A DNA stretch of 64,000 nt from Harmothoe impar (lineage: Eukaryota; Annelida; Polychaeta; Phyllodocida; Polynoidae): contig OX381721.1 in the NCBI GenBank assembly GCA_947462335.1, positions 38,900,488-38,964,487 on the forward strand, given 5' to 3'. The notes under the pieces are model-generated. The model saw nothing but the letters and a program-made list of their open reading frames with translations. It was not told the origin of the DNA and did no database searches. Below are positions 35,841-64,000 of this stretch, in pieces (the stretch's first letter is position 1; every line of letters starts with the position of its first letter). The position numbers were made by a program, and so were the translations under genes.

Positions 35841-40689
<4,849 letters not shown>

Positions 40690-40838
40690 CACTGAACTTA
40701 CATGTATATAGAAATATGAGCGATTCACTAAATGTTTTTTCTCCTATAAAGGAACTGATTTATTTTTGTATTGAATCATCAATTTCTACTTTTAACTGTT
40801 CCCTAACATATTAAGAAGAATGGGATTACAGGCTTTTC

Positions 40839-40844
40839 AATAAA
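40839..40844 (+). terminator. polyadenylation signal of the methyltransferase gene
   Basis: AATAAA, 150 bp after the stop codon. Confidence 0.6.
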
Positions 40845-40859
40845 TATATTTCAACTCAA

Positions 40860-42397
40860 ATGTGTTCACTTCCAGCTCTGGTATATGTCATTTATGTTAT
40901 AAGTAAATCATGAATGTTATAAAAAATATCAGCCTTTTTAAAATTATTTTTATTAGAAACAATAGATGCTATAGTTATTAGTACATGAAATTGGACAAGG
41001 GTATAATTAATACAAAATAACTTATTTAATTCCACAAATGTATAAAGTAAGGTGACGCCTTCAGTTCAACTAACCATTATTCCAATTGCCCTTTAAGTGA
41101 CATGACAAATATCAATGCTTCATATACACAGATTAGTATAAAAAATACACTTGAAATGCACTTATTTGATAGAACAATATAATAAATGCCCTGAAGAGTT
41201 AGAAGTGCATTATGATACAAATGTACATTTCATTCAATACAAGTAATTTTCAAACTAAATTGGTCAAATTATTGTACATGACAATCCCCTAAATAGGCAC
41301 CTCCAGATCCTACCAAAATAAATGGTACTGGGCTTTGTCACATATAAACCTCTAGCTGGTTCATTTATGCTTGTGTCCAAAGTCTCATTTCCCAAACTCA
41401 TTCCATATACCTGAGCATCAAGATTTATCTAAACAGGTTTTTAAGTGAATTAGAACTTTAGACTAAAAAACCTGTTTGCTTTTCAGAGATTCCTTGGGTA
41501 CAATACTTTCTCCTGGGATTGGGGTGAAATAGTCTTATAAAACACAAGTTTTAGTTTAAACATTACACAATATAACCACAGACAAACATTGTACATTACA
41601 GTCATGCATGAAAAAAAAACATCCCAAAATGGGATCAAGTATTTAAGAACAAATGAGAGATACTGGCCTAATTGGGTTGCACCAATGATGAAAGACTAAA
41701 ATATATACACATCATTATAGGTTAAATTTGAGCATATAGATACAACTCTTTTCCTTATTTTTGAGAATGTATACCGTAAATCCTTGCGTGAAAGCCTAAC
41801 TCATTCTTTACCATTCGAAACATACTTGAAAATGCAGATTTATTGTTGTAGCATATTTTTAAGCGGAATATATTGGTAGCAAATACCATTACAAGTCCAA
41901 AGAACTGCTTAGTTTGTAGATACAATCAATATATGAATGGGGAAAATTCCGTAGTAAATGAGCCATCAAATGTGATTGACATAAGGTGAATCGGTCGGTT
42001 GTGCAGTCTGGTCTGACGAGTACTGCTGGTAGATTAATATCATAACAGCCATTTTGTCACCCTATTGTCCCATAATTCATTGCAATCATTGTCCTAGTAC
42101 CCCCAGAGTGGGATTGGCACCAGATGCAAAATTTATTACTGGTCAGCATGTCCTTCACCATGAGGAAGGTACATTGCCTAAACTGGTTCATGCCACCATG
42201 AAATCGCAGTTGCTTGTGTTAGCCAATTAAACACCAGCCATTATGACCACCTGGATCTAATATTTTACCAGTGAATTGATATGTTGAAATGGTCCAATTA
42301 GATAGTTATACACCATTAAGAAATACAAGTAGGTACCCAGTTTTGAGGTTATTTTGGGGCCATTTGCGTTGTGCCTTGGTAGATTGATGAAAGCCCT
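40860..42397. other. convergent intergenic stretch
   Basis: The methyltransferase gene ends from the left and the reductase gene ends from the right. No further gene is seen. A minus-strand AATAAA at 42132-42137 could end the reductase transcript, about 260 bp beyond its stop. Confidence 0.5.
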
Positions 42398-45300
42398 TCA
42401 GGCGACATTGATGAAGTACAACATGAGAATGACGAGAGCGATGGTAACGAGCACTCCGACCACCAGCCAAACGAGGTGCACCACCCTCCACAAGTCACTG
42501 TTAGGTTTGGATGGCGGGTCCTGAATATTCATACCATTCTTTGTCACATGCTCCACCTGGTCGGCATTCCCTGTAAACACATATATATGTTCAAGCTAGA
42601 AGAAATGGCACATTTCCAGTCACAGCAGAATATGAATAAGTTTTGGGATATAAAAAAATGTTTACAATACCAAAATTGGTTCTTATGACTTTCAAGGAAT
42701 ACTGCTGGAAATAGCTGTTTGACTTGATCTTCAAACCTTCAGTTTCCACCTTGCTTTGGACATCCTGGGAGTCCAGCAGCTTCTTGATAGCAGACACAAA
42801 TCATATTCATGCCAACTCTTAAGTTGTGTGAGGTTAACTGGGAAGTCGATTTTGTATGAACTGAAGAAAATTTCCTAGTACACTAATAATGCAAGGTCGG
42901 ATCAGCATAATCTAGGATCAAGGTGCAAACAGAATCCTTGGCACCTCCTCCAGAATAACAATCACGTAAATAACCGATTGGAAATTGTTTCTCTATTCCG
43001 CAGTTTAAATATAGGTCAGGCAAGGGAAAAAAGAACTTACTGTCCCTGATGCAGTGTAGAATCTGCAGCACGATGAACCACACCACATAGAAGCCGAGCC
43101 ACGCGGCCACCGTGATGGTGCCCTGCATGCGCACCGGTTCCCCGATGATCTTCACCTGGAATGCCAGCAGCACGCACACAGCTGGGAAGGGCAGAAGATA
43201 CAACAGTGGATGAAAATTGAAAAAGGAAGATTAATACAGGATGGCTGAAGGACCATTGGAAAAACATGATGTATATACTTGCTGGTGCTACAAAAGAGTT
43301 TTCAGCCTTTTATTAAATTGAATCAAAAATCCTCTGGAATTGTTGTAAAAAAAATTGAAAAGCCATGATATTATGACCATAATAGTGATGGTCACAGGAA
43401 CAACCAAATTATACCTGGTTATTACACTTACCAGAGCAGATGAAGCCCAGCATGCCACTGCTCCTGTGGAACCAGTTGAAGATGGTACGTCTGGAGGTCC
43501 CTGGATGCGGGCGTAGTAAACCGCTAATAATCTGCGCCATACCGAAGCCCACCGCAACCAGTCCAAATATAGCATGGATGGCTGCTTTCTGAAATATAGA
43601 AATGAAGGAACATGATAAAATATATTCTCAATGTGCAGTATAGAGAGAGGAACTCATTTTCTCATAGCCTGCTGCACTGATAATAATACCTATAGTCAGT
43701 AGTGACTATACCCCCCTTTTTTACCCCTCCCTAGTCAAATGACCATATACATTCGTCACATCTTAGTCAGAAATGTGGTCATGGTGCCTACCAGTAGGGG
43801 GCCTGACCCAGCAGGTTTCGGTGACGTCACAGGGATGTGTGCACAAAAACGTCATGAGGAAGGAACACATCCTTTTTCATCTCAGGATTCCATGCAAGGA
43901 GGACACTCAACTTCAGGTAGGTAAATATAATTAGGCTAATCTGCCGGAAATACAACCTTAACATGCCCATCTGCAACCATCCTCAATGATTAATCATAGG
44001 TGAATAACTAGGTTACATGTGTGTCGTGATTCTGATGGGAAATGCATTATAGATAGGGGTATTTCATCCGATATTTTTGTGGTGACACATAGCCATTGTA
44101 AGGACTAAGGCTACTGCGTAGTTGTAATCTGACTGAAGAATGACAGAATTTCCAAAATGTCCAGACACAGTAAGCTACAGTTCACGAATCGGTCTAAACA
44201 GTCAGGTCCCGATTTCCCGGGCGCCCCCGTTTGTGTAGTCGACCAATGTCCGAATCGACCGTGTGTGTGAAAGAACGGGGGTGGAGCAGTGCGTGTGTGT
44301 GGAGGGGGGGGGGGGGGGGTCTGTGGGGATGGTGGTGGTGTACGTATATATGAGGAGGGAGGGGGTATGCATTACGGATTGGGTGGTCAACCTTTCACTA
44401 ACAAGCATTCGGTATGTCTGTGTTCACACGGTTTCATAAACGTTGATGTGGAACAAAGTGTGTGTATGTTTGTAATGTAGGTGGGGGGGGGGTGAGGGGT
44501 CCTGATCAATTACACAAGAGGCAAAGTTGTCCAAAAGTCGCCTGTTTGATGTTATTATTGTGCTACATCGCAAGTCACCGAGAAAACAGCCCAGGTCCCC
44601 CCCCCCCTCCACTCCTCCTCCTCTCCCACGCCTCTTATCAACTAGTTGTCAAGGTGATGACCCCGTCTCCGTGACAACTTTCTGCACTCTCCTATAGCCA
44701 ACGTGTTCATCACAGTAACACATTCTCTGCTACAAGTTGAATCTCAGGTTGAAATAAATCGCTCACACAGTCATAAACAATCATGCAGTCCTACAGTAAC
44801 AGATAGACAGAATAGTTCTGTTATACTACATCGATATAACACAATGCATGCCTGTCTTTTACCATAAATGGAAAGATCTACTGGAGCAGAGGTGGTACCA
44901 CAAATTGGATGTGTGGAGAGTGCACGTTGGTCAGTGAGTCCCGTGCTGAGTCTGAGGGTTGTTTGCCACAACTCAATAATATATAGACCTACTTGTGACA
45001 AGGACTTTGTCTTTGATCATTGGCTTCGGCTACCACTAGGCCTACATTTAACTGGGGCGGATCCTATTTTGCTCTCGGGATTTTGTAGTTCCAACAAACA
45101 CCATCCAGAGGAGGTAGCCACTGGATCACAACGTAGGCAGTGAGTGAGTAAGCCCCAGGGGTAAGCTCAACTAGGAGTTTACTGTAGGTCCTATATAACT
45201 AGGCCTATATATATAGCCTAGGCCCACGCCCCCTTTCCCAAACTGCTGCGCACAGCCACAGAACAAGGAATTTTTTTTTTTTTTTGTGATGGCATGGGCT

Positions 45301-48300
45301 ACTAGTACTACTACTGGTACCATTTTAGGCCAACTCACTATCCCTGGTTGCCGGGCCTGGTTGGTATCAATGGGGCGGATCCAGGAAATCTTTTTGGGCG
45401 AAGGGGGGTGGGGAGGGGGCGTAATAACAAATATATTGGGGGATACAAGTTAGCTACATTAAAATGTACAGAAAAATAGGGTATAGATAAATAGTAGGCC
45501 TATAAGCTATTAGGCCACGGGGCGCCCCCATATTTTGCAACCTGGTCACCTGTTTTGCAATAGGCCTAGCTAACCCTCAGGCAACATGCCGGGAACTTAA
45601 TTTTTTGGGAAATATAAAGATGGAGCGGGGATGCCCGGCATGGGCGAGGCCTGGGGCTGATCCAGGATTATGAAAAGGGGGGGGGAGGGAGGGAGTCAAA
45701 GTTTACATTAAAAACGTCAATTTTGCCCAAAAACGCGGGGGGGGGGGCTGGAGGGTGCGTGGTCCCACGCCCCTTCTCAATCTACCACTGGTAGGCCTAC
45801 TGGACAGTGGTAGGCTATAGTGGTAGGATGGCTTTTGGCTTTTTTGCAAATAAATTCTCAAAAAAAATGTTCCCGGCAGATTTGAGCCCCAATCATTTTA
45901 TTGCAGTGATAAAATGTTACCACCAATGGCTGGTATAAATATGATAAATGTGGTGCTATGTTTTATTAGTAAACTGAGATCTACAAACACCTAAATAGGA
46001 GGTGATAGATTCGACCCTATCTATGGGACTTTTAGCATTATGGGAGCCTCCCATAGAAGGCACCAAACCGGTCTGGAACGCAGATCCATCTACGGGGGCA
46101 CCTCTGGAACGCAAAACAGCACTTTCACTGCAGTTGTATATTTAGTATCAAATAACGTCGCGATAAATCGGTCGCTGGGAGTAGGCTGGGAGTCTTCTAC
46201 ACACAGCTGCCACCCCCCCCCCTACACACACACACGCACACCTTGTTCCCTCCCTCTACACATCCCCCTCCCTCCCACCATTGAACTCAAAAGGGGGCTT
46301 CCATAAAGTATGTAGCTAGGCCTACACACCCCCACCCCCATGTTGCATTATGTACGCATTATAAGCTATTTGTTTAAACATACAAATGACCCTATAGACC
46401 CTTAAATTTGACATGGCGACATAGGCCATTTTGGGCCTCAGTGACATGGGACAGGAGGGAAAAATAGATGGTGACATGGAGCATTTCTGGAGCCATGTCT
46501 TAAAATCGATATGGCAACATGAACATTCCTTAAAATCGACATGGTGCATGGGGACCCCCCATCAAGGGCCCCATACAATTTATTCCAATTTTGATTATGA
46601 CTATTTGATCTTGATTTCTCGATTTCTCGATTATCAGGTCTGAGCAATGACCTTCAAGATAGGATGACATAGAGGAAAAGCCCGTCTATCTGTTACTTAC
46701 ATTTTGTGGATTTAATGGGCCATTTTGGGGATTAATGGGCCAGTATGATAAAACTTCAATACTCATCAGCAGAATCTATATTTGCCATCTCGGCCCAGAT
46801 ATGGTGCCCTCCAGGCCCTAGGTACACTTGCCACTCATGAGTGATTGATGATCATCAATGGGGGTGAAATGTGGCCAATCACAATGTGTACCATGGGTGA
46901 GTTTCTTAAACCCTCCCCCGCCCCCCCCCCCCCCCCCCAAAAAAAAAAAAACACACAAAAAAAACAAAAAAAAAACACTTTATCTAATAAACTTGGTCAC
47001 TTACTAACGAAGTAGCCTTAAAATGCATCAAATCATTTCAATATTTTCTAAATCGCCCCCCCCCCACCCTATCTATTTCCCACCATACTGCTTACAACAC
47101 CCAGAAATACCACTAGCCTTTTTTGGAAACCCTTAGGACAGATTAACAAACAAATGTCACTTGTAGGCCTATTGAGAATAGCTGAGATCCGTCATGTTTC
47201 TATGCCTTAAATGGGAATGATCCCATATCTGAAAAGCCATGGAATGTTCACCAGGAAATGTCCCTAAAGCAATGGAGTTATCAATTTAAAAAATGAAAAG
47301 GTGCTACCACTAATTCTTGCATAATTATAAGCCGTGCCCTGGGATAAGTCCCATCTTTAACTTGCAAGAATCATAGAAGTCGCACCTGGGGTCTGATTTC
47401 TGATTTCTATATGTACAAATCTGACTTGTACACACCAGGGCCTCTACACAAGGATCCACTGCATTATTTTTGTAGAAAAGAACTTAAATCATTATTTGTA
47501 TTCATGTAGGATCGCCACATAGACTGTCCCACATCAGCGAGAGCTCCGACTTCGCCACACACTACCCCCCTGTCACTGCTCTCACTATCATAGATTTATA
47601 CAGTTGAAGAAAAAATGTCTTTATCTAAAATCAAAGACTTGAGCTAGTCTAGTCGCTACAGTGCTTGGGGTAAAGCATTCGATGACATGCATGTTACCTG
47701 GGTACCATCCTTACATGGTTGATGCACTCCAAAAGGTCGACATGATGCGTGAATGCAGCCCTTGGAAGTAGACTCATCCAGGCTACATGCATGCATCATG
47801 ACAACAAAAGGCATAACACATTAAAGCACTATGTGACACATAAAGGGTTAATGAGGTTTCCATCTGTTATCACCCACTAAGATATTAGGAAGAGAGGGAT
47901 ATAATTTAAGGATGTCATTGGTATTACAGGTATCAATACATCACTATTTTTTATGTATCTGATAACCAAATCTACAATCTCTGGGTATAGATACTCGGCC
48001 ATCTTGGATTATTTTTGATTAAACAAATATTAAATTGTTGTTTTTTTAAATTTGATTTAGTTTTTTTTTAATTTTAAATTTCCAAATATTCCTAGTTCTA
48101 TCCCTGCCGGTGCAGTTGCCAGTGGAATTCATACATACCATACCGGCGCGATTTAGCGCCGGGGCGCGCTTCAATTTGGAGGGGCCATTAAAGCCAAGAT
48201 AGGCGCTTATTCGAGATCCTATTTCAGCGCTTAAGGAATGTTTCAAAACCCCTGTACCCCGGCGCTTATACAAGACTGGTGCTCTTTCGAAACCGGTGCT

Positions 48301-51300
48301 TTATCATGACGGTACGGTAACGCGATAGGCTCTATGCTGGAGCTTGGGTGTCGGCGTTCCCCTGTTACAGTTCTAAGCTTTTGAATCGATATAAAGGCCT
48401 ATGATGGTCTAATTATTTTAGATCTACAAGTCTATTGGGATAGCCTCCTGGGTCAGCCTACAAACTGTACACAATTCTACCCCCCCCCCATATTTATAGA
48501 AATGATGACCCTTTGCAATGTAAAAATATCTGTGCATAATTAGGTCTATTACTAATTGTACTAATTTTGAGAGGGGGGAAATCTCGTGTAGAGGCACATT
48601 TTTATGCCTACCTAGAGCACACAGAATTTTTCAGCCCCCCTTTGAATTATATTAAGTACGCAAGTGTTCTTTTTGCTAAAAAAAGGAGTACATTTTTCAT
48701 TTTCTAGATGTTTATTGTAGATGTGTAAGAGGCCTGCCCTTGGATCCCTCTGTACTAGCCTCTATCAGTGAAAAGGGAGCCTTCGTGCCTCAAAAATTTG
48801 AAAGGACACTATCTGTATCAAGGTGTTTATGAATGTTTATTATTTTGCAGAATGGACAAAGAACTCAATGTTAGTGAGGAGCTCATAGAAACTGAATGCG
48901 AGGCTTCATGCAGTGAGGAAGATAACACAAAGCAAAGACAAGGCGAAGGAGCAGCGTCTTCAGATACAGTGTACGTACTTTAATAACTACAATGTTTATA
49001 TGTGAGTTTTGTGGCACCGGAGTGTGGTCTCTATTTCATTTCTGGTCTCATGTGAAAATTCACCAAGATGTTACTCACTTTAGTGTCATTTGTCAACATG
49101 AGTCCTGTCCCAAACGCTTCAAGTCAGTGTCATTAGTCCGCCGCCACATGTCAAGTGAGCACCCAGTTCTGTATAAACAGTTGACAGATAAGCCCCAGAA
49201 AAATGATGTCTTGGAACCTGAGAATAGCACAAGACAGTCTTTTGCGGAAGCAGCTGAGCAGCATGATAGCGAAATAATGGATAATGATTCTGATATTTCT
49301 GTGGCAGAAGCAGACATTGATGATATCAATTTCTCTGAGGACAGCATTAAAACACATGTAACAAGGACACTGTTAGGAATTCGAGAGAAACATAATTTGC
49401 CATCAACAGCAGTAGTCGACATAGCATCAAGGTTTGCTGAAGTTGCAGATTTAGAAAGGCATCACCTCTTTGAGAAAATGGAAAGGGAATTGAAAAAAGA
49501 GAATTTACCAATTACAGGTAGCATGAGAGAAATCTTTGAGAATCAATCCACAGTATCAACCGCTTGTGCCCGGATAGACTCCCAGTATAGGTTGGAAACT
49601 GCATCACAGCGTCTTCTAGATTTTATTCCACCGGCAGAATATACTGTTGGCCATGATAAACAGAGGAATGACAAGCCAGAGACATTACAGTATGTGTCAA
49701 TTCAGGAGACAGTGAAAGCACTACTCAAGTTTGATGATATCAAAGCTCATATATTAGGTGCACACAACTCTCAAGGTCCATTACTACATGGTTTACATGA
49801 TGGGGAATTGTGTAAAGACAATCCAGAGCTTTTAGGCTCACGAACTATAGGAATCATACTTTATATGGACGAGTTTACACTAACAAATCCTCTGAGGAGC
49901 CAGGCCAATCAGTACAAGATAATGGCAATTTACTTTCAACTAGCAAATCTGCCACCACGTCTGCGTTCTAGATTAGATACGATTCACTTAGTGTCGTTGT
50001 GCAGAAGCACACTGGTCAAGAAATATGGGCTTAATGAGACCCTGTCATGGCTAGAACAAGAGTTACAGGAACTGGAGGAGAATGGGATAAATTATCGAAT
50101 CGATGCTGAAGAGGAAAACATCAAGTGCAATTTTGTAGCTTGTGTCAGTGATAACTTAGCAGCGCATCAGATTGGGGGATTCTTAGAATCTTTCTCAGCC
50201 AATAGATCATGTAGGTTCTGTCAAGTTACAAAAGAAGATCTGCAAGATGGAAAGATTGGTGAACCAAGAAATCCAGCGAAGCATGATGACCACCTAAGAT
50301 TGGTTGAAAAGCACCCACACTTATCAAGTGTCTATGGCGTTAAATCTAAGTCAATTCTAAATGACCTACGATTTAGTCATGCAACTACAAGTCTACCAAG
50401 TGACATAGGTCATGACCTGTTTCAGGGTACTGTCAAAACAACCATAAAGTTGGTCTTGGGACACATCACACAGAACAACATTGTATCGCTTGAAGACATA
50501 AACACATCCTTGGCCAGCTTTAAATTTGCAGGCACAGACAAAGTGAACAAGCCAACAAAGATACCCTCACACCTGGATCCTAAACAAACATTCGCAAAGA
50601 TGTGGTGTTTATTTCGGTTGCTTCCATTCCTGGTAGGTGATAGAATACCACCGGATGATGCCGTGTGGAAATGGTACTGTCTGTTTCGGAAGGTTGTAGA
50701 GCACATCTGTGCACCTATTCAATCAGAAACCAGTATCAATGCACTCCAAAGTCTACTACAGAAATTCATAGAAACAAAAACCACTTTGTTCCCGGAATCT
50801 CGTCTCACACCAAAAGATCACTACATGCTCCATTACCCCTCACAAATTAAGAAATTTGGGCCCTTGATCCATCTATGGACTCTGCGGTTCGAGGGGAAAC
50901 ACATGTACTTCAATCGAGTGTGGAAACTCAGCACTTGCAGCAAGAACATTTGCAAATCACTTGCCCAAAGGCACCAGTACAAATTTGCACATGACCTTGC
51001 CCTCAAAGACACCTTTTTCACTGTGACTGACACCATGACAGGGGGTAAGACAGTGAAGGTGAAGGACCTGCCACCTCACATTCGAAGTGCTGTGCTTCAA
51101 ATTCCGACTTCGGTAGATGATGAAATCACTGTAGGGAAAACGCTGACATGTGGTGGCACAGTATACCGCAGAAACGATGCCATAATTCTGAAAGGAGATG
51201 AAGACAAACCAACGTTTGCTCTTGTTCGGAAGACTGCCTGCTTCAAAAAGGAACCATTTCTGGTCTGCCAAAGACTGAAGACTGTACGCTTCAATGAACA

Positions 51301-54300
51301 CTATTGCTGCTATGTAGTACAGCGTGAACCAACCACCAACATCATCAAGGTCAATCATGACTTAGATGACCATCACCCCCTTAGCTTATATCGCTCACCA
51401 TGCGGAAATATTGAGGGTGTCATTCTGAGGCATCTGCTAATTAGCAAAGATTAAAGAAATAGAGGTATGTCCAGATTAAGCTAATTTAGAACTGGTGTCT
51501 GCTCTTTGTTACGATGTCATAAGTTGTATAAAATGTAGAAATATCTGACAAATTGCTATAATCTATGTCTTTTCTAGGTAGATGCTGCTGGTTGCATTAT
51601 TGATAAATGTCTTCTCCGAATGCTCTATTCTGAAGGTAGATTATGGTTTATAGTTTTCTTTTTTGTGACAGTAGCAATGTTTCCTTATAGTAATATATCT
51701 CATATTATTTTTCAGGACATATCGCTTCCATGTTACTTATGGACACCAAAAGAAGTTGGTTCAGACAACAAGTTTATTTTCTCTTGAAACTGCCATTCGC
51801 GAGACTTTTGGAAACAATGACAAATCCTTTGAAATGCAATTGTACCTAAAAGATGTAGAAGACTATGTAGATTGGGAAGGTCCAATATTTAACCTTGTGT
51901 CTACCACAGAAGTGAACAAAATTCAAATCTTAAATCCACAAGTAGTAGCAGAAGGACCTTCAGGTCAGGGCACAACTGCTCCGAGACTCAGCACATCTGG
52001 ACAACGGTATGTTCATATCAAATTGTATAAATGTTGCTCTAATAGATTTCTCAACTTGATCTTTAAGTATTCAGAAGGGTTTAGTTGATAGACATTTATA
52101 TTAAATCTAATGGCATATAGAACAACTGTTCATCCTTAAGGTCACCCTCTACATCTTATACGGCAGTACATTAATGCAGGTGGACCCTATGTATTTTGCG
52201 AAACAGAGCAAACTAATTCACTCATCTGTTACCTCCATTTATTTACAGTGGCTTTTGCTTCCCAAGTCAGTTACTTGCACCATCCATAGTGCGGAAAATA
52301 CAGAGAGGAGAAGATGTCCTTAGTAAGAACGACGAGACGCGAATCGCTGAAGCTTGGTACATCCTAACACAAACAAGCGTGTGAGTAAGAGACAATATCA
52401 CTTCCTTCATCTAAATTTACAGAATGTCCGGCATACAATTGTATATGCAGATTATCTAGGGGCCTTCGATAAGTATGTATGCACATTTTTCTCCAGAAGT
52501 TGAACCCACCAACCCTGGCACCCCCTGAAGCTCTTGTAAACAAAAAAAGAGTTTATGTATCCAGAATTTCTCAAGAAATAAACCTGACTGCTCCTTTTGT
52601 GCATACTTCCAATAGTTAAATAAAACACTGCATTTTACATCATGAATCATTGAAGTATGTCCCTAATCACCTGTTCCATGATTTTAAGCAAGCAACACTC
52701 ACAGGATTAAAAGAATATCCAGTCCATAATATTCTTCATAACACTGAACATTTAGTTGAATACAGATAAGGGGAAATACAAACGTGCACCCATCTCAATA
52801 CTGGGTCTCCAGCCCCTACCTCACCTAACCAGGGGTCATTATCCCAGAAGACCCCTCATGCACAGACACTAGCCAGAGCTTGGAAATGAGAGGCAGAGGT
52901 CCCCTCACGGGTGTTGGCTTGTGGATGGATAGAGGCCAGCACAGGTAGATAGGTGGCCCTGGGAACAAGAGAGGACCAGGGAGGCGGAGGGGGCTGTCAC
53001 CACTGTTCCCAACTCCCGCAAATATGTGAAGGCTTCAATTCTTTGATGTGACTGGCTACCTGGTGTAGCTATAGACCTGTGAAGAGGGGGAGTCACTATG
53101 ACACCTGCCCTAGGCGCCCTGCTACAGCCACTATAGAAGCTGGACCCTGTGGCTGATGTTCAGAACCATAACCATGTCCCAACCATCAATAAGAAAGCCA
53201 AAAACCTCATTATGAATGAATTTACATCTAAACATTTTGAAATAACAGGATTTCCTTACTGCTGGAGTGTATTGAAACGGATTTGGGCATTAACTAAAAA
53301 AAATGAATTTGTAACAGTGGAACTTTACTGTAGGTACAGATGTTCCTTGGAACAAACTAATTTCCAGTGGATAAACATGGCTTGTGTATAACCTAGACAG
53401 GTGGTGCTCTATTCCACATTTACTTTACACTTAATTATTTTAGGGTGGAATAAATGTTCATATACCTTAATTCACAGCTACCCTGGACATATCCGCTATA
53501 GAGAGATGGCAGTAGTGACCGTGGAAACAATCAGGCTTCATAGTCATGAGACAGAGATGGAAGCTATAGTAAATCTAAATGTCCATATTATTCATTGATT
53601 ACAGTTACTTGTTCAGTGGTTGTATTTCAGTTTTTATTTCACATTGCTATTCATTTTGTGTGAATTCTTCAAGGGTTGCATACTGCTTTAATTACTTTGG
53701 TCGCCATGATGCATGGATGAACCCCAAGGGAGTAACTCACTGGTGCTACATTATGCTGACCCTTCAGGAGTGCACCCAATAGGGTCATCATGGTGCATGA
53801 ATGCAGCTCTGGAGTCTTACTGACTAGGGCTGCATCAATGCATTATGACGACAAAAGGCATATATGGTATTCGACGTAATAAGCACACAGTGCGCTTAAA
53901 ACATGATTAAGGACACATTTTAGTAGTTAACCCATTCAGGGTGAATATAGACTATACTCTACATCCACCCCTGGCCGAATGTAGACTATTTACTACACCA
54001 TGTGGGGCCGGATGTCGACTATAATTGACTCTATGGGAATGGGCAATGTCCCAGCCCCAGGGAAAAAATCTGGAAAAAATCCCGGCCTCCTGGCTAAAAT
54101 CTTTTTTGGGGGGGCCGGCCTCAATGGGTTAAGAGTTTAATTGGGGTCAAAAATTAAGATATTTTTTGATATTTGTAATATAAAAATCAGCCAAAAACTG
54201 TAGGTTTGCGCTTATTAGAGGATGTGCACTTATTACGTCGAATATTGTACTGTATTAATGCACTATGCAGCTGTTTAGGGTTAAGGCTCTTTGTGAGGGC

Positions 54301-57300
54301 ATAGAGCATTTTTGTTTGCTAAGACTAGAATAAGACCCTAAAGGTGTCACAATACATAACCACAACGGTTGTGGGATATTACTGAATACTTGAATATCAA
54401 TATGTGAATATGACCATAAATCCTCTCTTGAGGCTGTTTGAAATGCAAATGATAGTGCATATGAGATTGAAATATTTTTACATCTTTAATGATCTGATGC
54501 TTGCTATGCCTTCATGGTTATAGCACCCATGAATTATATAATACTATCATGCTATACTCTATGCAATATGTTTTATTAGGTGCTACATTATTATATATGA
54601 ACAGTGAACTAATCTTATTTCCCTTGTTTTTGTTTTATAGACACATTGGCACAAGCGTATCAAAACCCACTTTCAGAATAGGCGTAAGCGAACTGAGCGA
54701 GACAACCCTGAGGTGGCAGCTCGGTTAGAGGCAAAAGGAAAGAAGGGTAAGGCTGTTCTGTAAAGATTCTTTGCTATAAAACCCCGTCAGAGTGAATATG
54801 AATGTATGGTGAATCTTTACCTTGGTAAAGATCTTGTGTACAAGCTAATTTTTATAAGCCACATTCCAAACTTTGCCAAATACTATAAGCCTCCAAGGGA
54901 GTCTAAAATTGCTAATTTAGTACTTTTGTATACTTGTAAAAGAAACCCTATAAACCACATCCTAAGTAGTCAGGTTTGGTATCAAATTGAGGATTACTCA
55001 TCACGACAACAATTGCATCACATTTTTGTATTGTCATTGCCTTTTCATCTCTAGTTGTTGATATAGCTTTTTTTTCAATTCCACTAATTAGGCCCAGCTG
55101 GGGCTGCAGCGAGTTTCGGTAACCTGTTCCCCGATAGGCCAGAGACGGAAGATGATGCTTCTATTATGAGCCATATTGCTGTAAGTACCAACATCTAATC
55201 CCTTGAAATCGATCTCATAGATTGAACATCTACACCTATTGTGCATATGATTTGTGCATAATAACAGACTTTTCTATGAGATAGAACAATTGTGGTGTTT
55301 TACCCTACTGACACAGGGTGAGCTAGGTGCCAAAGTGATATGTTAGCTGGCACCGCAGCATCCCCTGTAGGCCTAGTTCATACTGCCCATTGTCACCCAG
55401 AGTGGTCAATGCGTACCTCGCTTAAGCTTACTTATGCACAACAAGTGACTTATCTATAGAAATACTGACAGACCACTGATCTAGGTATATGTGAGTGGGC
55501 CTCATACAAATGTGTTTTCTGAGATACAGTAAAATCTCGTTATAAGGAGCACCTTTTGGCAAGGGAAATTTGCTCGTTGTAACCAACCTTCTTTGTAACC
55601 GATTTTGGTCATTGACAAGTCATGACAAAGCCCCCCCCCCTCCCCTTGGGGGAGGTGCAGTGGGGTCCCCCCTCAGGTCGAAACAGTCGCTAAAATAAAG
55701 GGTCCCAGGTCACAAAGCCGCTTTTTCAGACCATCTATGCTATAGTCAAACTTTTCCAAAAGGGGGGGTGCAGAGGGGTCCCCCCTCAGGTCGAAACGGT
55801 CGCTAAAATAAAGGGTTCAAGGTCACAAAGTCGCTTTTCAGACCATCTATGCTATAGTCAAACTTTTCCAAAAGTCACCAGGTTGCTTTTATTACACAAT
55901 CAAAAATAATCCCATTTCAAGAAAATCACAGGGGAGGTCCTGACAAAGGCCCCCCCCCCTCCCCCTTCCCCCCCCCCACTCACAGGTCCGTAGGCCTACC
56001 AACACCCCTGTAGCCCGCCCATATCACAGAGAAGTCCTCACAAAGGCCCCGCCTCCCCCTGCCCCCCCCCACTCACAGGTCCGTACCAACACCCCTGTAG
56101 CCTAGGAATGTCATTGACATCCAATTTATTTCGATTTCGATTATCACTATTTTGGTGTCGATTTTCCGATTATATCGATTTATTTTGATATTACTAAGGT
56201 AGTTTGTATCTACTTGAAAAAGGGTATTTTCAGCTGGGTTTTTTTCTTCCTTATACTCGAGGCCAGAAGAATGAACGCTTAATAGGACTTTGGGCACAAT
56301 CTGAAATCATTTTTCACCAATATTATGGACCTAAAAGGGTCATCATTTTTAAGCTGAATAAAAAGCAAGTTATAGATGGAATATTTACACAATTTTTGCA
56401 GTTTTTGAAGGGTAATTTATAAGTCTTATCAGTGGTACAAAAAGTGTATCGATATAATGCTTTTGTCGATGCGATAATCGAAATTCTATAAATGTCGATG
56501 TATCGATTCTGGGTGTATCGATGACAGTCCTACTGTAGCCCGCCCATATCACAGAGAAGTCCTCACAAAGGCCCCGCCTCCCCCTGCCCCCCCCACTCAC
56601 AGATCCGTACCAACACCCCTGTAGCCCGCCCATATCACAGAGAAGTCCTCACAAAGGCCCCGCCTCCCCCTGCCCCCCCCCACTCACAGATCCGTACCAA
56701 CACCCCTGTAGCCCGCCCATATCACAGAGAAGTCCTCACAAAGGCCCCGCCTCCCCCTGCCCCCCCCCCCCCCCCCCACTCACAGATCCGTACCAACACC
56801 CCTGTAGCCCGCCCATATCACAGAGAAGTCCTCACAAAGGCCCGCCTCCCCCTGCCCTCCTTACAATGCAAGTCCTGACAAAGGCCCACACATTATTCCA
56901 CCTTATTTCAATGAAGAATGACTTACTATCTTGAAAATGTTTGCTCCTTATAAACGATTTTTGACTAGAAATGCTCGTTCTAATGGTGTTTTTTCACTAT
57001 AGGGAAGTATAGAAAAGTTTTGGCACAGCAAATGTGCTCCTTATAACCGTCTGCTCCTTATAACCGTCCTCCTTATAACGAGATTTCACTGTACATTATT
57101 TTGTAGATACATTTGATGTTTTCATTACCGAATCATGTTTGAAATGAAGTATTTTAATGGTGGATCCCCCAGCCCTCAAATTGTTTTGTCCACTGTTGGC
57201 AGACCTGCGTCCCCCATACCAGCTACCAATTGCAATTTGTTTTATAGGTAATGAAGTCTGAGTACAGAAAGAAAACAGTTAACCGGCTACTTGTGACGAC

Positions 57301-60300
57301 ACTAATGGAATTAACGATGGGGGATCGGAGGAACATGATCAAAGACCAAGTTCTTCTGGAAGTTGTTCTTGACACATACCCTTTCCTTTTGGATAAATCA
57401 CAGGTACCGTTCCCTTAAAATATCTTGATGATGTCTCTTCTAGGCCTTCTAGACTGGCTATCTCTTTAAATTTCTTCCTTTAAATGCAAATGACCATTCT
57501 TCATATAGTTTGGTTTAAGGATCTCCTAAGTACACAAACCAGATTAATCAATATTCATCTCTTTTATCAACATTGATTGTGAACCAGTTTTAAGTTACTC
57601 AATTTATTGATTATGGATCCGATTTATATCATTTATACTAAATCATTTATAAATATGTCCCAATTTTTACTAAAATCTAGCACGAAAATTGCAGTTTCAG
57701 TATGAGTTTGAAAGAATGCTTCCATCTGTGAACTTCGATGACAAAATTATAAATGGATTCATCGTGCAGACAGACGCCGTATTGGAGCAACAGCACAAGG
57801 CTAGCGATCTTGAAAAAAGATTCATAGAAGCATCCGTTCTCGAAGTTGACAATTCAATGAAAAAAAGTGAGCAAATTTCATGTTTCAGCTGCTATTCTTT
57901 ATAGTCTTTTCAAAAATAGTTTATGGCTTCTATGTAGTTGTCAATCTTAATATCAAAACAAACTATAAAAGATATCATTTATTCTCAAATCCATACCTCA
58001 AGATGATCAACACATCCACAAAAAAAAATATCAATAAAGAAATCATCTATAGAACTAAGCAAGAGATGCCTGTTTGGAGATACAGTACTTTAGCTGACTT
58101 AATAAATTGAGAGTTCTTGTCACATAACTTGTAATAATCAATCTAATGAAGTTTAAAACTTGCCTACTCTGCTCTGTATAGCTCTACGCACATATGCGGC
58201 TGCCATCGCCCTGTCAACACTGCTAAAAGAGGATCCTGAGGTACTGTTCAACAACAAGGTAAGTTTTACCAGTTTCTATCAATTATAGCTTGTTTAGTGG
58301 CTGTGAGTTGCTTTTCTGGTCAAATTCGAAAGCATAGGTTGCTTAAGTGACTGAGGATGTCTTACACAATTCTAGAACTATATTTCATAGATTCAATCAT
58401 GACCCTTAGTTATTCAGCAACCCAAAGTTCACACAACTATCATGTTATCAAACGCCATTATTGCTTGTTCCTATAAAAGAACCATCCTCCCTTTTCTTTG
58501 TAGTCTGCCGGTGCTGGACCTAACCTCGTTCATAATGGCAAGAATAATGCAACTGATGCGGACCTATTCTCAATCACGGTGGAGGGAGAGGTTCTAGCAA
58601 AGGAAAAGGACCTTTTGAAGGCTCTTGCAGCTCTCATGAAGATTTGCTACATGTTTGATCTTCGATACGCAAAAGGAATGGTCAAAATGCTGACATATAT
58701 CCAAACTGTGTTTCTCGAACTTGGAAAGAAAGAAATGACCAAAGGAATGAAAAATCTGTCGAAAAAACTCACAAAGAAAACATAGATCTACATGGGCAAT
58801 GCCTGATATTAAGCTCTGCACAGACAAGTATTACCAAATCCCTAGCCTACTAAAGAAGGTTGTCAAAATGGGTGACATATGCGACTTATCCTTACCTTGT
58901 ACTTGACACACAGAATTTATGTTTTATTAAACTTATCCAAGAGTACTCGACATACTATTGATGTAAACATATATGTATATCTTTTACCGGGAGCTATATC
59001 TACTTACTTTGGATAATTGTGTCTAGGTTGAAGCATTTATCATTTTGTGATGATAAAATTGATGATTGAATGTAGGAAAGCCTAAACTTTTAGGTTATAA
59101 AAATGCCTGCATTGTATTTCGATGTCATTTGGAAGTTATCATAATTGAGTTAGTGTTTTCTGTAGTCTAAACTTATGCTACGCAAAAGTGAATTCTTAAG
59201 CCATAAGGCAAACTAGATTATATTTGATTTATTAAAAGTAAAGGTCAACTCTAAAGTTATGAGGTGATCCAGATGATTATGATTTTATTTCACATACTTT
59301 ATGCTTTAATATCTAAACTATATCCAAGAGTAGAAGTCAAGTTCTTGAACTTAATGCAAGAGGTTCTCCATACTACATTTTATGCAAATAACTATTAATA
59401 TTGCTTTAATTTCTTTCAGTAGCGTAATTGAGGCTTATTGTATATGAATAATTACACTGAACTATTACATAAAAGAATTGGTGCTACAGTGATTGATTAT
59501 TCATAATTATACATATTGCCAAGCAGGAGCTGTGATTAGTTAGAACATAATTATTCCATGGTTTTACTTCATTGTAAAGAGGAGGGGAGAAAAGCTGAAT
59601 CAGTCTGCAACAGTAATTGTCTTGGCTATTCGATTTATTGTAATAAACATGTTTATTCCATAATTCACGGCTCCTTTCTTTTTCCAGAGGCAGGACCATC
59701 CTGGTAGAAGTTGATGTGGAATAATAATTTAATTCCACACCTCAGACCAGTTTTGCCCTGTCTAAACAAGATAAAAATATAGTCACTAGTGACTATGATA
59801 TGTTAGTCACCCATAGTCACATCATAGTCAATTGACTATAGCTTGTCCCCTATACATTTCTAATGCATGACTATACCTTGACTATATGACTATCCAAAGT
59901 TAGTCATAACTACTAATCTAGAGTAGCCCTTTTTAGCACCATCATTTGACTACCTTATGGTAGTCACTAGTGACTAACCTTTCAAGCTATATTTTTATCA
60001 GTGTGTATACCTTCGTCATTGTGTAATTCTAGCACAATCAGGCAAAATTAACATATTTATTACTAGCTACTATACTATATGATGATAAATACTGAAACTG
60101 TCGATGGACAAATATAGAATATGTATGTCTTTTTTCAAATATCACTGAACAATTCTGAGGACAATTTCAGGATAATTCCTGAACAATTTCTAGATGCCAG
60201 ACCTCCTCAGCATCATGTTTGATTAGGCACACACATATAAATAGCTGTATCCCAGGTCCAAATTTAAGCGGGAAGATATGCAATTGAAGGAGGGGGAGTA

Positions 60301-62072
60301 CACTTTTAATATAAATTCAGTTTTTATGGAAAGTGATCTGCATCATTAGTAGGTGGCACTATGGGAGGCAAGGCAGTCCATTTGAAATAACATTCTTGAA
60401 GGTGAAAAAAATACTTTCCTAATTATCTATTGTATCAGTGAGTAATTTAGATTTTTACCTACCTCAGTCCATGCCTTTAGGTATACAAATATTATGATGA
60501 TGCCAATGACTGATATCAGCATAGCCGTCAGAACCAGAGCACGGTGAACCTGTGGAAACAGAATTAGTTGCTTTTGTAGGTGATTTTTACCACTCTACTA
60601 TGGTATGACAAGCAGGAAGGAGACCGTTTTTCTGTACCTCGCCTGATGTTAGTTTGCATCACACTCTTGAGGGGTGACTGTTGTCTTTCGGGTGTGACAT
60701 GACGCACCGAGACGCGAACAGATTAACCGGTGATTATTTAAGTCCCACAGAATTAGGGGTATTAAGGCCTCACTCCACATAGGTACATCAGTCAGTGCAG
60801 GTTCGCCTGACTCCCAGCAATATCCTACGGGAATTCGTGTATGATTTCCATATACTTTATGCTACCTGCTTACCCCTCTCTGCTCCGCAGTAGAGGTAAG
60901 ACCTATTGTATACCTTAGGTTCGGATAATAAACTACTCCTTTTACTTCGCACTTGGAAACTGCCATTCCATGTCATGTTTGACATAATCAAACCAATCAG
61001 GAGCAAGCTGAGTTGCTCCTCGTTTGTTGACGGAATGGTTGCCACATAGAACTAACCAGAATCAGTTGCTTTTTATTAAATTCTTGAAAGTCAGATATTT
61101 TTTATAAATCCCAGTAACGTTTCAGAGTGAGAGCAGCTCCATGAAATTACTTAGCATTGCTTAATCAATGGCAATGTATAGAATTGAAAATCAATCAAAA
61201 TCCTTCAGAAGCTCCTTTACATAGAAACAAGGCATCTAGAAATATATGTGGTACAAGCCTCTGATTCTTAATGTAAAAGCTAGGTCTGCCTTTAAACCTC
61301 AGGCTTAGGCAAGATGCATATTTAATCAACTTACATCTTTCTAAATCAAAAGATAATGTTTAGTAAGTAAAGGAGAATAACACCCACCTGAAACCACACA
61401 GCAGCCCCCAGGAGCTTCCCGCTGAGTGTGGGTTTGTAAAAACGAGCTATGAGGATGGCGATCCCCACCATCGCGATCCATGATACAATTCCCAGACTTC
61501 CTGCAAGAGATATCTAATGCTTGATTTGAATGTTAGATTAACTTAGATGACATTGGTACAAGGACATTTTACTTTCACTTCCATTTGCCCTGGGTATTAT
61601 CATTCTCTGTGTCAGAGTGGGTTTTGTGGAAAAGTAGTAAGAAGAAATCCGTTGCGATCAAAACATGTTTTTGTGATCATTTTGAACTATTTATTTTATC
61701 AATTTCAGGGTGGTATGTACGATACATAGTACTTGTACCTATAAGCTGGAAAAGCTTAAATTGGAATTCATGCTTATTGAAATATTTATTGGTTATCAAG
61801 TTGTGTCAAAAAGAGAAGTTATAAGAACATTATCTACATTGAAACACTGTTTATATATAAAATTTGTAGACAATTTGGATTTTCTAGAACACCTAAAATG
61901 AGGGATAAAATCCAAAATATATCGATTCTAAGGCCATAGATGTGTATGAACTTACCGTGAGCCCTGAGTGTGGGGTGAAGGGACCGGGCGCCCACGATGG
62001 TATTCTTCATCAAGTCCACCTTACCCTCTGATATCAGCGGTAGAACCGCATGATGCTTTGGCGCAGTTGTAC
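42398..62072 (-). CDS. ferric-chelate reductase-like protein, cytochrome b561 half (5' end outside window)
   Basis: Coding exons in transcript order: 62072-61956, 61500-61388, 60549-60463, 43588-43432, 43181-43041, 42570-42398. Phases agree at every join. They encode about 262 C-terminal residues and a stop. The linker (HHAVLPLISEGKVDLMK, then GARSLHPTL) leads into RAHG, the start of a cytochrome b561 core. The four haem-ligand histidines are visible: in RAHG, in VHRALV, in KAAIHAIFG and in FNWFHR. Other family marks are ARFYKP, AVWFQ and LRPHPGTSRR. The first exon begins in phase 1, so the N-terminal DOMON and any reeler domain must lie beyond 64 kb. Such proteins carry electrons across membranes, reducing ferric iron. 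The 16.9-kb intron 43589-60462 hosts a two-gene transposon-like unit on the other strand. FRRS1 or an FRRS1-like paralogue is likely. Confidence 0.88.
43589..43674 (-). other. intron remnant between reductase exon and putative transposon end
   Basis: 86 bp of intron, including the acceptor for exon 43588-43432, lie between the exon and the first CACTGATAA terminus-like sequence. Confidence 0.5.
43791..43802 (+). promoter_or_regulatory. CTCF-like motif near the putative transposon end
   Basis: CCAGTAGGGGGC matches the CCASYAGRKGGC core. It lies about 116 bp inside the putative left terminus. Confidence 0.4.
43805..48840. other. gene-poor stretch upstream of the element's genes
   Basis: No coding gene is supported. 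G/C-run tracts lie at 44305-44320, 45385-45420, 45670-45760 and 46917-46985. A possible non-coding first exon ends at 43917 before GTAGGT. Parts of 45340-45790 (GGGGCGGATCCAGGA and GGGCTGATCCAGGA phrases) and 48560-48690 look like decayed GC-rich MITEs. A CATCATG-type repeat is at 47680-47815. Confidence 0.4.
48851..58785 (+). CDS. SAMD3-like second gene of the putative transposon, nine exons
   Basis: Coding exons: 48852-48970, 51716-52006, 52249-52378, 54641-54746, 55092-55180, 57248-57403, 57695-57866, 58182-58258, 58504-58785. All joins keep phase, totalling 1422 nt and 473 residues. An acceptor (TTTTGCAG) directly precedes exon 1, so a non-coding exon lies upstream. Exon 1 is acidic (MDKELNVSEELIETE). 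Exon 2 resembles a PB1/ubiquitin-like fold (FHVTYGHQKKLV, later LKDVEDYVDWEG). Exon 4 is basic (KTHFQNRRKRTERDNPE). The later part (MKSEYRKKTVNRL, DTYPFLLD, YEFERML) recalls uncharacterised metazoan proteins annotated SAMD3-like. I do not see the SAM domain itself. Function is unknown; a DNA- or transposase-binding partner is plausible by analogy with TnpA. Intron 1 contains the transposase gene and intron 5 a pogo-like MITE. Confidence 0.75.
48992..51454 (+). CDS. CACTA-like (CMC superfamily) transposase with C2H2 zinc fingers
   Basis: An uninterrupted 820-codon frame, all within intron 1 of the SAMD3-like gene. Two C2H2 fingers open it: Cys4-Cys7-His20-His24 and Cys34-Cys39-His52-His57. An acidic linker (about residues 90-120) follows. 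The catalytic region has MDEFTLTNPL (Asp293), YFQLANLPPRLR, SDNLAAHQIGGF (Asp387), a CRFC Cys pair (407/410), SDIGHDLFQG (471-479) and KFGPLIHLWTLRFEGKH (621-637), the order seen in transposases of this type. Asp293 and Asp387 are my best guesses for the first two catalytic acids; Glu634 may be the third. It is not truncated or frameshifted, so the source element may be recently active. A domesticated host gene is the alternative. Confidence 0.8.
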   Translation: MFICEFCGTGVWSLFHFWSHVKIHQDVTHFSVICQHESCPKRFKSVSLVRRHMSSEHPVLYKQLTDKPQKNDVLEPENSTRQSFAEAAEQHDSEIMDNDSDISVAEADIDDINFSEDSIKTHVTRTLLGIREKHNLPSTAVVDIASRFAEVADLERHHLFEKMERELKKENLPITGSMREIFENQSTVSTACARIDSQYRLETASQRLLDFIPPAEYTVGHDKQRNDKPETLQYVSIQETVKALLKFDDIKAHILGAHNSQGPLLHGLHDGELCKDNPELLGSRTIGIILYMDEFTLTNPLRSQANQYKIMAIYFQLANLPPRLRSRLDTIHLVSLCRSTLVKKYGLNETLSWLEQELQELEENGINYRIDAEEENIKCNFVACVSDNLAAHQIGGFLESFSANRSCRFCQVTKEDLQDGKIGEPRNPAKHDDHLRLVEKHPHLSSVYGVKSKSILNDLRFSHATTSLPSDIGHDLFQGTVKTTIKLVLGHITQNNIVSLEDINTSLASFKFAGTDKVNKPTKIPSHLDPKQTFAKMWCLFRLLPFLVGDRIPPDDAVWKWYCLFRKVVEHICAPIQSETSINALQSLLQKFIETKTTLFPESRLTPKDHYMLHYPSQIKKFGPLIHLWTLRFEGKHMYFNRVWKLSTCSKNICKSLAQRHQYKFAHDLALKDTFFTVTDTMTGGKTVKVKDLPPHIRSAVLQIPTSVDDEITVGKTLTCGGTVYRRNDAIILKGDEDKPTFALVRKTACFKKEPFLVCQRLKTVRFNEHYCCYVVQREPTTNIIKVNHDLDDHHPLSLYRSPCGNIEGVILRHLLISKD
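53145..54640. other. intron 3 of the SAMD3-like gene
   Basis: No exon is supported here. The short frames at 53149-53782 have no splice support. It holds a CATCATG-type repeat (53700-53870) and a TTAACCC-type repeat (53930-54130). Confidence 0.5.
53930..54130. repeat. dispersed TTAACCC-type repeat, copy 3
   Basis: It begins TTAACCCATTCAGGGTGAAT and ends GCCTCAATGGGTTAAG, an inverted-repeat pair. Internal phrases ACTACACCATGTGGGGCCGG and ATGTCGACTATAATTGACT are shared with 24465-24640. Confidence 0.75.
55965..56880. repeat. GC-rich tandem repeat of about 90 bp
   Basis: Units carry CCAACACCCCTGTAGCCCGC, CATATCACAGAGAAGTCCT and CACAAAGGCCCCGCCTCCCC plus a variable C run that sets the length. 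The second unit is interrupted by the hAT-like element at 56103-56532. Confidence 0.85.
56103..56532. mobile_element. hAT-like MITE with 8-bp target duplication
   Basis: The ends are TAGGAATGTCATTGA and, reversed, TAGGACTGTCATCGA. Identical CTGTAGCC octamers flank it (56095-56102 and 56533-56540), the 8-bp duplication typical of hAT. The interior repeats TATCGAT and TTCGATT words. It lies in the tandem repeat of the pogo-like element. Confidence 0.88.
58926..58931 (+). terminator. candidate polyadenylation signal of the SAMD3-like gene
   Basis: ATTAAA, the common variant signal, 141 bp after the stop codon. A perfect AATAAA lies farther on at 59642. Confidence 0.35.
58932..59770. other. gene-free AT-rich stretch
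   Basis: No gene or clear repeat is seen between the SAMD3-like gene and the TAGTCA-rich end region. Confidence 0.4.
59771..60003. mobile_element. TAGTCA-rich inverted-repeat region (MITE or subterminal repeats)
   Basis: Both edges carry GATAAAAATATAG in opposite orientation, followed by TAGTCACTAGTGACTA. At least eight further TAGTCA words in both orientations lie between. It could be a 233-bp MITE or the subterminal region of the 16.3-kb element. The outer left edge lacks the CACTG that the right edge has. Confidence 0.65.
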
Positions 62073-62589
62073 CTTAACAACAAAAGATATTATTAAAAAT
62101 ATGTTATAGCTTCTACAGGCCAGGAAGGACATAGAGCTCTATATTAAAGAGAGTAAACCCAGATCTCAACTTGAGTGAATCTGACGAACCACATTTGTAA
62201 TATGAATGAAATCCATGCAACATATGCATCCCAGAGCAATGGATATCTCTGATTGTTGTGTTTCACAGCCATTAATGACATTAATGGCTGTGAAACATTA
62301 TTGGAGTCTGGCTATATGTATGCGATGTATATAGAGTTGACAATGTCGAACAACATGAGATTTGAATCCTTTGTGTGGGAGGTTTGGGGTGAAGTGACTG
62401 GTTACTTTCATGCCCTACACTCTAAAAACAGTGTGTTACACTTTTCTGAAGCCACTTTTAACACACTTTTTCTTTGTAACACACTACACACTTTTGGCAA
62501 AAGTGTGTTGAATCTAAAAAGTGTGTTGGTGTACAAAGCCATAGTATTGCGGAGGTGGGGGGTTCTACACCTAACAGAGCATGTCAGGT

Positions 62590-62654
62590 GCCGTGGCTGA
62601 GTGGTCTAGGGGCTGGCACATCAGTCCCATCCATGCAGGTTCGAATCCCTTGAC
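62590..62654 (+). mobile_element. tRNA-like SINE head or tRNA pseudogene
   Basis: GCCGTGGCTGAGTGGTCTAG holds a perfect type A box and CAGGTTCGAATCCC a perfect B box, in serine/leucine-tRNA style. No long variable arm or matching acceptor stem is evident, so I do not call a functional tRNA. Confidence 0.5.
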
Positions 62655-63291
62655 AATTATTGTTTTTTGAATGTTAAGTATGATTACATTCTATATGGGC
62701 TAAGAGTTAAATTAATATAGATTTATTTAATTTTTTGTCAGGGCTATTCATGTCCATACTGTGCATATACTGTGCGTATCACTTTTAAAGGCTTCTTATA
62801 TCTAGGAAAAGTGTTTATTGAACTGCTCATAATATACAGAAAAGTGGGAATAAAAGTATCATATCAAAACTGAGCTTGTATTGACATTGAACAAATCATA
62901 GTCAACCACTGTGAACACATCCTAGCTCCTGACCCTGGCGAAACTGACACACCTGATAACCAACTGGTGACTGTGGCGCAATGTGCCATGACCGTACCAC
63001 CGTCAGATAGAGTGGGATGGCTGCTCTCACGACCTTTTCTCAGAGTCTCTAGTGGTCAATTGTAGCCTTTTCCCCTCCCGGCTAGGACCACCTTTGTCAA
63101 CACTGATATCTGCTATCTCTTTACCAGTCGCAAGTGTATTATGCTTCTACGGGTTGAAGCGGATCGGTGCAAGTCTCATGGGAGACCAGGACACTGAAGG
63201 TTCACTGCAGTCTGTCTACCGACACTTACAGACGCGACTCCTGTCAGGACAACTTGTTTCACTTGGGAAGACTTGGTGCCAGGTCTTCTCT

Positions 63292-63362
63292 GGGGATCGA
63301 ACCCAGGACCTCTCACACACTTGTCCAGCGACTTGCTCACTAGGCCACCAAATCTCCTTGCA
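63292..63362 (-). mobile_element. tRNA-like SINE head, minus strand
   Basis: The minus strand reads GGTGGCCTAGTGAGCAAGTC (A box), then CTGGGTTCGATCCCCAGAG (B box). About 250 bp of non-tRNA sequence follows in the same direction, as in a SINE. Confidence 0.5.
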
Positions 63363-63799
63363 CAATCATGGCGTATTCCCCCCTCAAATAGGTACCAGAA
63401 CACACAACAGTGAGGAGACAAAAAGTATTCTCAAAGATCACACAACTTCTTGCCTGTTACCAGTAAGCTATATAACTTACCCTTGGGTATTAATATGTTA
63501 TGACAGGAAGTGGTTCTTAGACAATACAAAGACCGCCCTTATTGAGGGATGCCAATGCACTGACTAATAATTTGCAGGGCTTGATTAAAGACAATAGTTA
63601 ATCAGCTATTAATAAGCCCCGTATTTACAGCCTTGCAGAACCTCTAAGTCTTACATGGGATAGTTATTTGGTTTACGCAAAGAACATGTGTGCATAGTTG
63701 AAAAGAAAAAACTTCCCATCTATTTCCAATATGGATTAAGTGAGTTTGCTCATTCAATAAGATTCAAATAATACAGTTTTTGTATGTATCTCATTGAAA

Positions 63800-63960
63800 A
63801 TTAACCCCTATTAAATAGGTGTTATATCTTTCATTGTAGTAGAGGGGATTGGTTGGGGAGGGGGTTGTAAAACAGTTCAACCCCTCCTGAGGGGAAAAGA
63901 AATTTGACACTTCTTGAGGGGGGGGGGCTAAAATATTATGGTCCTTCTTAGAAATTAAAC
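63800..63960. repeat. G/C-run MITE relic
   Basis: Phrases like CCCCTCCTGAGGGG and TTCTTGAGGGGGGGGG resemble the interior of the GC-rich MITEs at 23.2 and 29.4 kb, but inverted ends were not found. Confidence 0.4.
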
Positions 63961-64000
63961 ATTTCCATTTGACAGTCAACCCATAGGGAATCGAGCCAGG

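Follow-up and report, generated by a model that had tools for sequence, protein, structure and literature searches.

A CACTA-type transposase nested in the first coding intron of a conserved partner gene: probably an old, co-opted two-product gene family in an annelid genome

The window analyzed here is a stretch of 64,000 nucleotides from the polychaete Harmothoe impar (contig OX381721.1, positions 38,900,488 to 38,964,487 of the forward strand; C21:38900488-38964487 in our numbering of the 736 contigs that make up the 1.51 Gb genome). It contains a complete transposase open reading frame (ORF) that lies, on the same strand, within an intron of a second gene of nine exons, hereafter the partner (table 1). 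A preliminary description of this DNA had placed the ORF in intron 1 of the partner. Both the ORF and the exons stand, but the intron is better called the first coding intron: The acceptor-like 'tttattattttgcag' directly precedes exon 1, and the counterpart of this exon at two duplicated loci (L010 and L011) lacks an ATG and is itself preceded by an acceptor, which makes an upstream 5' noncoding exon likely. "Exon 1" may then be an internal exon behind this noncoding exon, and "intron 1" the first intron of the coding part.

The open frame that contains the transposase is uninterrupted from 48926 to 51454, and its ATG aligns with the first methionine (M1) of the homologues. Residues 1-57 form two C2H2 fingers, and residues 113-682 a RAG1-like DDE core with D293, D387, and E634, which by their position would be the catalytic residues, and with C407xxC410 and H610xxxH614. 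The interval from the second D of the DDE triad to the E thus contains a C(2)C and an H(3-4)H motif, the combination given for CMCT (CACTA/EnSpm-Mirage-Chapaev-Transib) transposases in the available text of PMC12730594, and the core has the RAG1/Transib-type fold. Motifs and fold together support the assignment to this kind, in agreement with the preliminary description, which had called the protein CACTA-like. Four of 11 homologues weakly match the Pfam family Plavaka (best E 1.9e-4), the window protein falling below the curated cut-off; a profile of the whole transposase searched against PDB sequences returned zinc-finger proteins but no RAG1 among the best 60 of 143 matches. The C-terminus (residues 678-810) is possibly BAH-like in a structure model. 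This region alone gave a model too poor for a structure search, and its profile yielded weak matches to ubiquitin-like BAG6 (E 0.04-0.09) plus two other weak matches. Viral contigs yielded 1 and 32 pattern matches, none of which was confirmed.

For the partner, six complete gene models emerged when GT-AG sites were enumerated, all of them with the same nine exons and one open frame; variation is confined to the donor of exon 1 (48955/48970) and the acceptor of exon 7 (57695/57701/57707), and with the exon borders listed in table 1 the product has 473 amino acids. No relative of it was found in PDB sequences or among 5.8 billion proteins, and against Pfam the best match is a chance-level one to CdiI_3 (E 0.14), with no detectable SAM domain. 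The later introns hold repeats; in intron 5 (55649-57093) these are tandem repeats and the repeat 'ctccttataacgag', which recurs elsewhere in the window.

Table 1. Features of the nested transposase and partner gene (window coordinates)
Feature	Position	Strand	Remarks
Partner exon 1, first coding	48851..48970	+	ATG 48852; acceptor-like site before, donor GTACGT after
Intron, 2745 nt	48971..51715	+	Holds whole transposase ORF (90% of intron)
Transposase ORF, 820 aa	48992..51454	+	ATG 48992, stop ends 51454, no internal stop
Donor-like GTATGT	51465..51470	+	11 nt past transposase stop; equal offset at L009
Partner exon 2	51716..52006	+	Paralogues encode the second SAM half or a ubiquitin-like domain at this place
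Partner exon 3	52249..52378	+	Splice-site models
Partner exon 4	54641..54746	+	Splice-site models, paralogue similarity
Partner exon 5	55092..55180	+	Splice-site models
Partner exon 6	57248..57403	+	Splice-site models, paralogue similarity
Partner exon 7	57695..57866	+	Splice-site models, paralogue similarity; further in-frame acceptors at +6 and +12 nt
Partner exon 8	58182..58258	+	Splice-site models, paralogue similarity
Partner exon 9, with stop	58504..58785	+	Splice-site models, paralogue similarity; stop ends 58785

A whole-genome search for the transposase, in which the best 55 of 83 candidates were scored, gave 44 matches: 14 full-length copies, which we treat as the family (the window and 13 further loci, L009-L021), 12 others in frames of 396-984 codons (of which L034 and L035 were examined), and 18 short fragments. 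All 14 members have open frames of 812-842 codons with no internal stops, and all encode the two C2H2 fingers and the DDE core, D293, D387, C407/C410, H610/H614, and E634 being invariant. Their proteins are 22-94% identical, the nearest to that of the window being L009 with 67%. Partner-type exons lie downstream of the transposase at 14/14 loci. Searched with tblastn against the 10 kb surrounding each of the 13 other copies, the window partner matched exons 1, 2, 7, 8, and 9 at L009 (best E 8e-24), exon 2 at L010 and L011 (E about 8e-4), and stretches at L013 (E 2.5e-8), L014 (E 2.6e-4), and L015 (E 2e-10); L010 holds relatives of exons 2, 4, 6, 7, 8, and 9 (E 0.011 to 7e-9). The same search extended to the whole genome at E <= 0.1 returned 19 exon matches in eight places (the window, L009, L010, L011, L012, L013, L015, and L016), and all eight adjoin a transposase copy, with the partner downstream and on the same strand. 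The weakest matches are at L010 (E 0.08) and L011 (E 0.02), and the farthest is a single exon about 12.4 kb downstream at L012. The pairing is more than chance because it recurs at the 13 other full-length loci. Within this genome the order proposed in the preliminary description is therefore repeated; partner homologues are linked to a transposase in 8/8 places, and the partner is not a single-copy host gene free of a transposase.

The remaining five loci point to a SAM-like domain in paralogous partners. At L017, L018, L019, L020, and L021 the first half of a SAM-like domain is encoded before the transposase and the second half after it, the transposase thus occupying the intron by which the domain is divided; the first-half exon lies about 1.2 kb ahead of the transposase in L020 and within about 200 nt in the other four, and at L021 six more exons follow the SAM exons in one open frame. 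Joined, the SAM exons of L019, the one paralogue tested against Pfam, match SAM_1 at E 3.3e-4, which misses the curated cut-off by 1.6 bits. At L013, the exon that follows the transposase is GRHL1_C-like (E 1.1e-4, below the cut-off), a family that we take to be ubiquitin-like. When profiles built from four members of each of the two partner clades were compared, 250 columns aligned with a probability of 93.8 (E 1.7e-7), against 0.1 (E 0.48) for the reversed control, showing that both clades have a C-terminal region in common. An exon upstream of the transposase is supported at 11/14 loci: by similarity between the window and L009, where an exon encoding MEKELNISEEL resembles partner exon 1 (tblastn, E 0.012), by splice sites in the near-identical copies L010/L011, by an alignment of L013/L014 in which gaps within the exon are multiples of three, and by the SAM half at the five SAM loci. 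The label SAMD3-like that the partner had been given, which we take as a presumptive one, draws some support from the split SAM-like domain of the five paralogues but none from the window partner itself.

Both the age of the family and the pattern of substitution suggest long maintenance. The ratio of nonsynonymous to synonymous rates (dN/dS) could be estimated in 4/6 pairs, dS being saturated in the other two, and is 0.31 for L010/L011, 0.16 for the window and L009 (dS 1.3), 0.15 for L013/L014, and 0.11 for L017/L019; it should be noted that values of dS near or above 1 are close to saturation. Since the duplication that separated L010 from L011, the transposase has accumulated changes at 50/1936 nonsynonymous and 42/527 synonymous sites (p=1.6e-7). 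In those parts of six partner exons that were compared, the figures are 7/732 and 7/195, respectively (p=0.015; the alignment has a single gap, in exon 9), suggesting that transposase and partner were both constrained at this one duplicated locus. Homologues from other records nest inside the tree of the copies: P0001 and P0002 join L010/L011 with support 100/99, and P0003-P0005, P0007, and P0008 form a weakly supported neighbor group within a fork supported at 99/96. If these records stem from other species, the copies would have split before the species did. The arrangement, the transposase frame, and the catalytic residues are kept across deep paralogues. Outside the annelid, the starfish gene LOC119736107 of Patiria miniata (isoform X1) is the only match to the SAM-type partner profile (E 8.7e-28, among 7995 scored candidates), aligning at 30% over the later partner exons; Pfam finds no SAM domain in it. 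As annotated, it is without the first SAM-like half and starts within about six residues of the border at which the transposase intron interrupts L019 and L021, a start that would fit an interrupted gene.

For a single locus, the default reading would be that a transposon had landed by chance in an intron of a host gene unrelated to it, and the later introns of the partner do hold repeats; the same pair, order, and strand at 14/14 loci, a donor spacing that is mostly kept, and the homology of partner exons across loci speak against it, and chance nesting, rejected on the 13 other loci, is hardly credible. A more serious competitor, though in our judgment an unlikely one, is a CACTA-like element of very low copy number and En/Spm-type layout that can still move and whose terminal inverted repeats (TIRs) lie outside the examined stretches or are short and degenerate. 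TIRs of the CACTA/CACTG or CCC type, with target duplications of 2-3 bp, mark CACTA/EnSpm elements. The recurrence of the layout at dispersed loci and the intact DDE residues of all 14 copies would agree with mobility, as would the precedent of SmTRC1 (available text of PMC1636069) and the presence in this genome of an ordinary CACTA-type family, represented by L034 and L035 (969-codon frames, 79% alike in DNA, with palindromic repeats behind, around 6.5 kb); membership of our copies in that family was rejected, as it is distinct and without a partner match. Against mobility, no convincing TIRs were found between 40000-48852 and 58786-64000 of the window, and a DNA search with its 3' flank (58500-59631; best 40 of 278 candidates scored) found neither a second copy nor end-sharing derivatives. 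The sole near-identical pair among the scored matches, L010/L011 at 94%, shares a block of about 14.3 kb (pieces 87-98% identical, with insertions between) that ends without TIR or target duplication; recent transposition was rejected as its origin for this reason, and it looks like a plain duplication. The word transposon, used in the preliminary description, is thus not borne out, given the missing TIRs, a nearest relative at 67%, and a 3' flank unique among the scored candidates up to 59631, and we rank co-option, which is probable, above mobility.

A further alternative holds that these are two independent genes, the transposase having its own promoter and poly(A) site, and that selection or inertia and not a common transcript keeps them together. 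Nested genes are common in animals; the donor lies 196 nt (L017) and 91 nt (L018) ahead of the transposase ATG, and at 5 of 13 loci (L009, L010, L011, L016, and L017; L012 was not countable) at least one AATAAA/ATTAAA motif stands between the transposase stop and the next partner exon. No such motif occurs in this interval at the other eight, namely the window, L013, L014, L015, L018, L019, L020, and L021. Moreover, in 8 of the 11 loci with an assigned donor, 15-26 nt separate the partner donor from the transposase ATG (21 nt in the window; apart from L017 and L018 the exception is L009 with 39 nt, its donor being uncertain), and the intron consists of ORF to 98% at L013 and 97% at L014, leaving little room for separate intronic signals. 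We therefore consider two separate genes improbable, more so than mobility. Donor spacing, ORF-filled introns, the eight loci without a poly(A)-like motif, and the GTATGT behind the stop favor a transcript common to both products without proving it, and such a transcript is plausible.

What remains as the best account is an old two-product gene, present at least 14 times in the genome, that is probably a co-opted CMCT (RAG1/CACTA-type) transposase locus. Several points weigh against this account, the poly(A)-like motifs at five loci among them. The alternative splicing of the pair is deduced from genomic sequence, and the BAH-like assignment is based on a single whole-protein model. An upstream exon is only a candidate at L012 and none is shown at L015 and L016. 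At L009, the frame of partner exon 1 runs into a stop at the likely donor, and exons 3-6 are not recognizable between 5700 and 6960; these apparent losses indicate that the partner can decay beside an intact transposase. The copies are spread over 10 contigs, as expected of mobile elements, and their catalytic residues are intact, both of which would be compatible with low-level mobility. TIRs may sit further out, be decayed, or lie beyond the stretches examined (the window and the L010/L011 block).

Under the co-opted two-product gene, one promoter would serve both products. Splicing of the intron would give the partner protein; if the donor goes unused, the intron being retained or spliced only past the transposase stop, the transposase would be made, so that the two would be alternative products of one transcript. 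The transposase would be a RAG1-like DNA-binding and DNA-cutting enzyme whose C-terminus may read chromatin. The partner may assemble with or regulate it by means of SAM or ubiquitin-like and C-terminal domains, in the manner of TnpA toward TnpD, and the locus would be retained for a host function and not by transposition. More speculatively, and doubtful as a whole, these may be co-opted, catalytically intact RAG1-fold recombinases with zinc fingers and a BAH-like reader, splice-switched against a SAM/ubiquitin-like partner, with a host role perhaps in programmed rearrangement or genome defence. If the co-option is real, an En/Spm-style "transposase in the partner's intron" has long been kept in an animal as a gene family and not only as a mobile element, and the role of intact co-opted animal transposases becomes testable at 14 loci.

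Elsewhere in the window, a 20-bp unit with a strong G/C skew between the strands is repeated in tandem about 100 times at 32552-34591; a 481-codon open frame at 7673-9118 (+), rich in hydrophobic segments, resembles by eye a seven-helix receptor, with no Pfam match at E 0.01, and an exon-like frame at 20447-20860 (+) carries a C-type lectin domain, matching Pfam Lectin_C at E 1.1e-4. Behind the partner gene, 59632-60007 is a dispersed repeat, parts of which occur in at least 39 further genomic places. Of the short transposase fragments, 16/18 cluster in C12:4.66-5.84 Mb and C18:67.1-68.2 Mb, many with stops, and two pairs within these clusters are 302 bp apart.

In maize En/Spm, the tnpD ORFs lie in the first intron of tnpA, alternative splicing of a single primary transcript yields both messages, and TnpA binds subterminal repeats. 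Four alternatively spliced transcripts are given for this element in the available text of PMC1636069. Like En/Spm, the annelid family combines a CACTA-type transposase with a second, non-transposase protein from one unit, and the transposase ORF lies within the first coding intron of the partner on the same strand, at the window and at other loci. Unlike En/Spm, TIRs were not found, there is one 820-aa ORF, the loci are old and without recent amplification, alternative splicing is here a prediction, and paralogous partners begin with a SAM or ubiquitin-like domain. Five paralogous partners, in which the transposase intron divides a SAM-like domain, resemble SAMD3-like proteins in this respect; the window partner differs from such proteins in having no recognizable SAM domain. 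Searches of the open-licence PubMed Central literature listed no description of a nested CACTA/SAMD3-like pair; PMC13228809, which in its available text treats THAP genes, was discarded as unrelated.

The closest animal precedent is SmTRC1 of Schistosoma mansoni, described in 2006, in which a CACTA-related transposase (Transposase_21) is accompanied by second products of alternative splicing; its TIRs are 54 bp long and begin with CCC, 7/14 copies analyzed show target duplications of 2 bp, the copy number is 30-300, and TRC homologues occur in sea urchin, Ciona, and zebrafish, with TIRs found in three species only and domestication considered (PMC1636069, available text). The arrangement, of which the preliminary description knew no account for animal CACTA elements with a SAMD3-like partner, is partly known: An animal CACTA-related element whose second products arise by alternative splicing was already on record. 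In the same text, the second products of SmTRC1 are without detectable relatives in other TRC elements, whereas the partner described here is common to 14 loci and has a starfish relative. Beyond SmTRC1, our data contribute a conserved partner in nested order, the presence of this order at 14 old loci, signs that both products were constrained at one locus that had duplicated, and the RAG1 fold. Plavaka elements share the weak Pfam matches and the C(2)C and H(3-4)H motifs but are, in the available text of PMC12730594, fungal elements with defined termini. Compared with RAG1/RAG2, RAG-like elements, and Transib, identity is 12-14% and C2H2 fingers are present here; the partner is nested on the same strand and not convergent as in the RAG layout (available text of PMC7204232). 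If our reading is correct, RAG1/RAG2 would be joined by a second example of an enzyme with the RAG1 fold that is tied to a partner, in this instance because the two share a gene.

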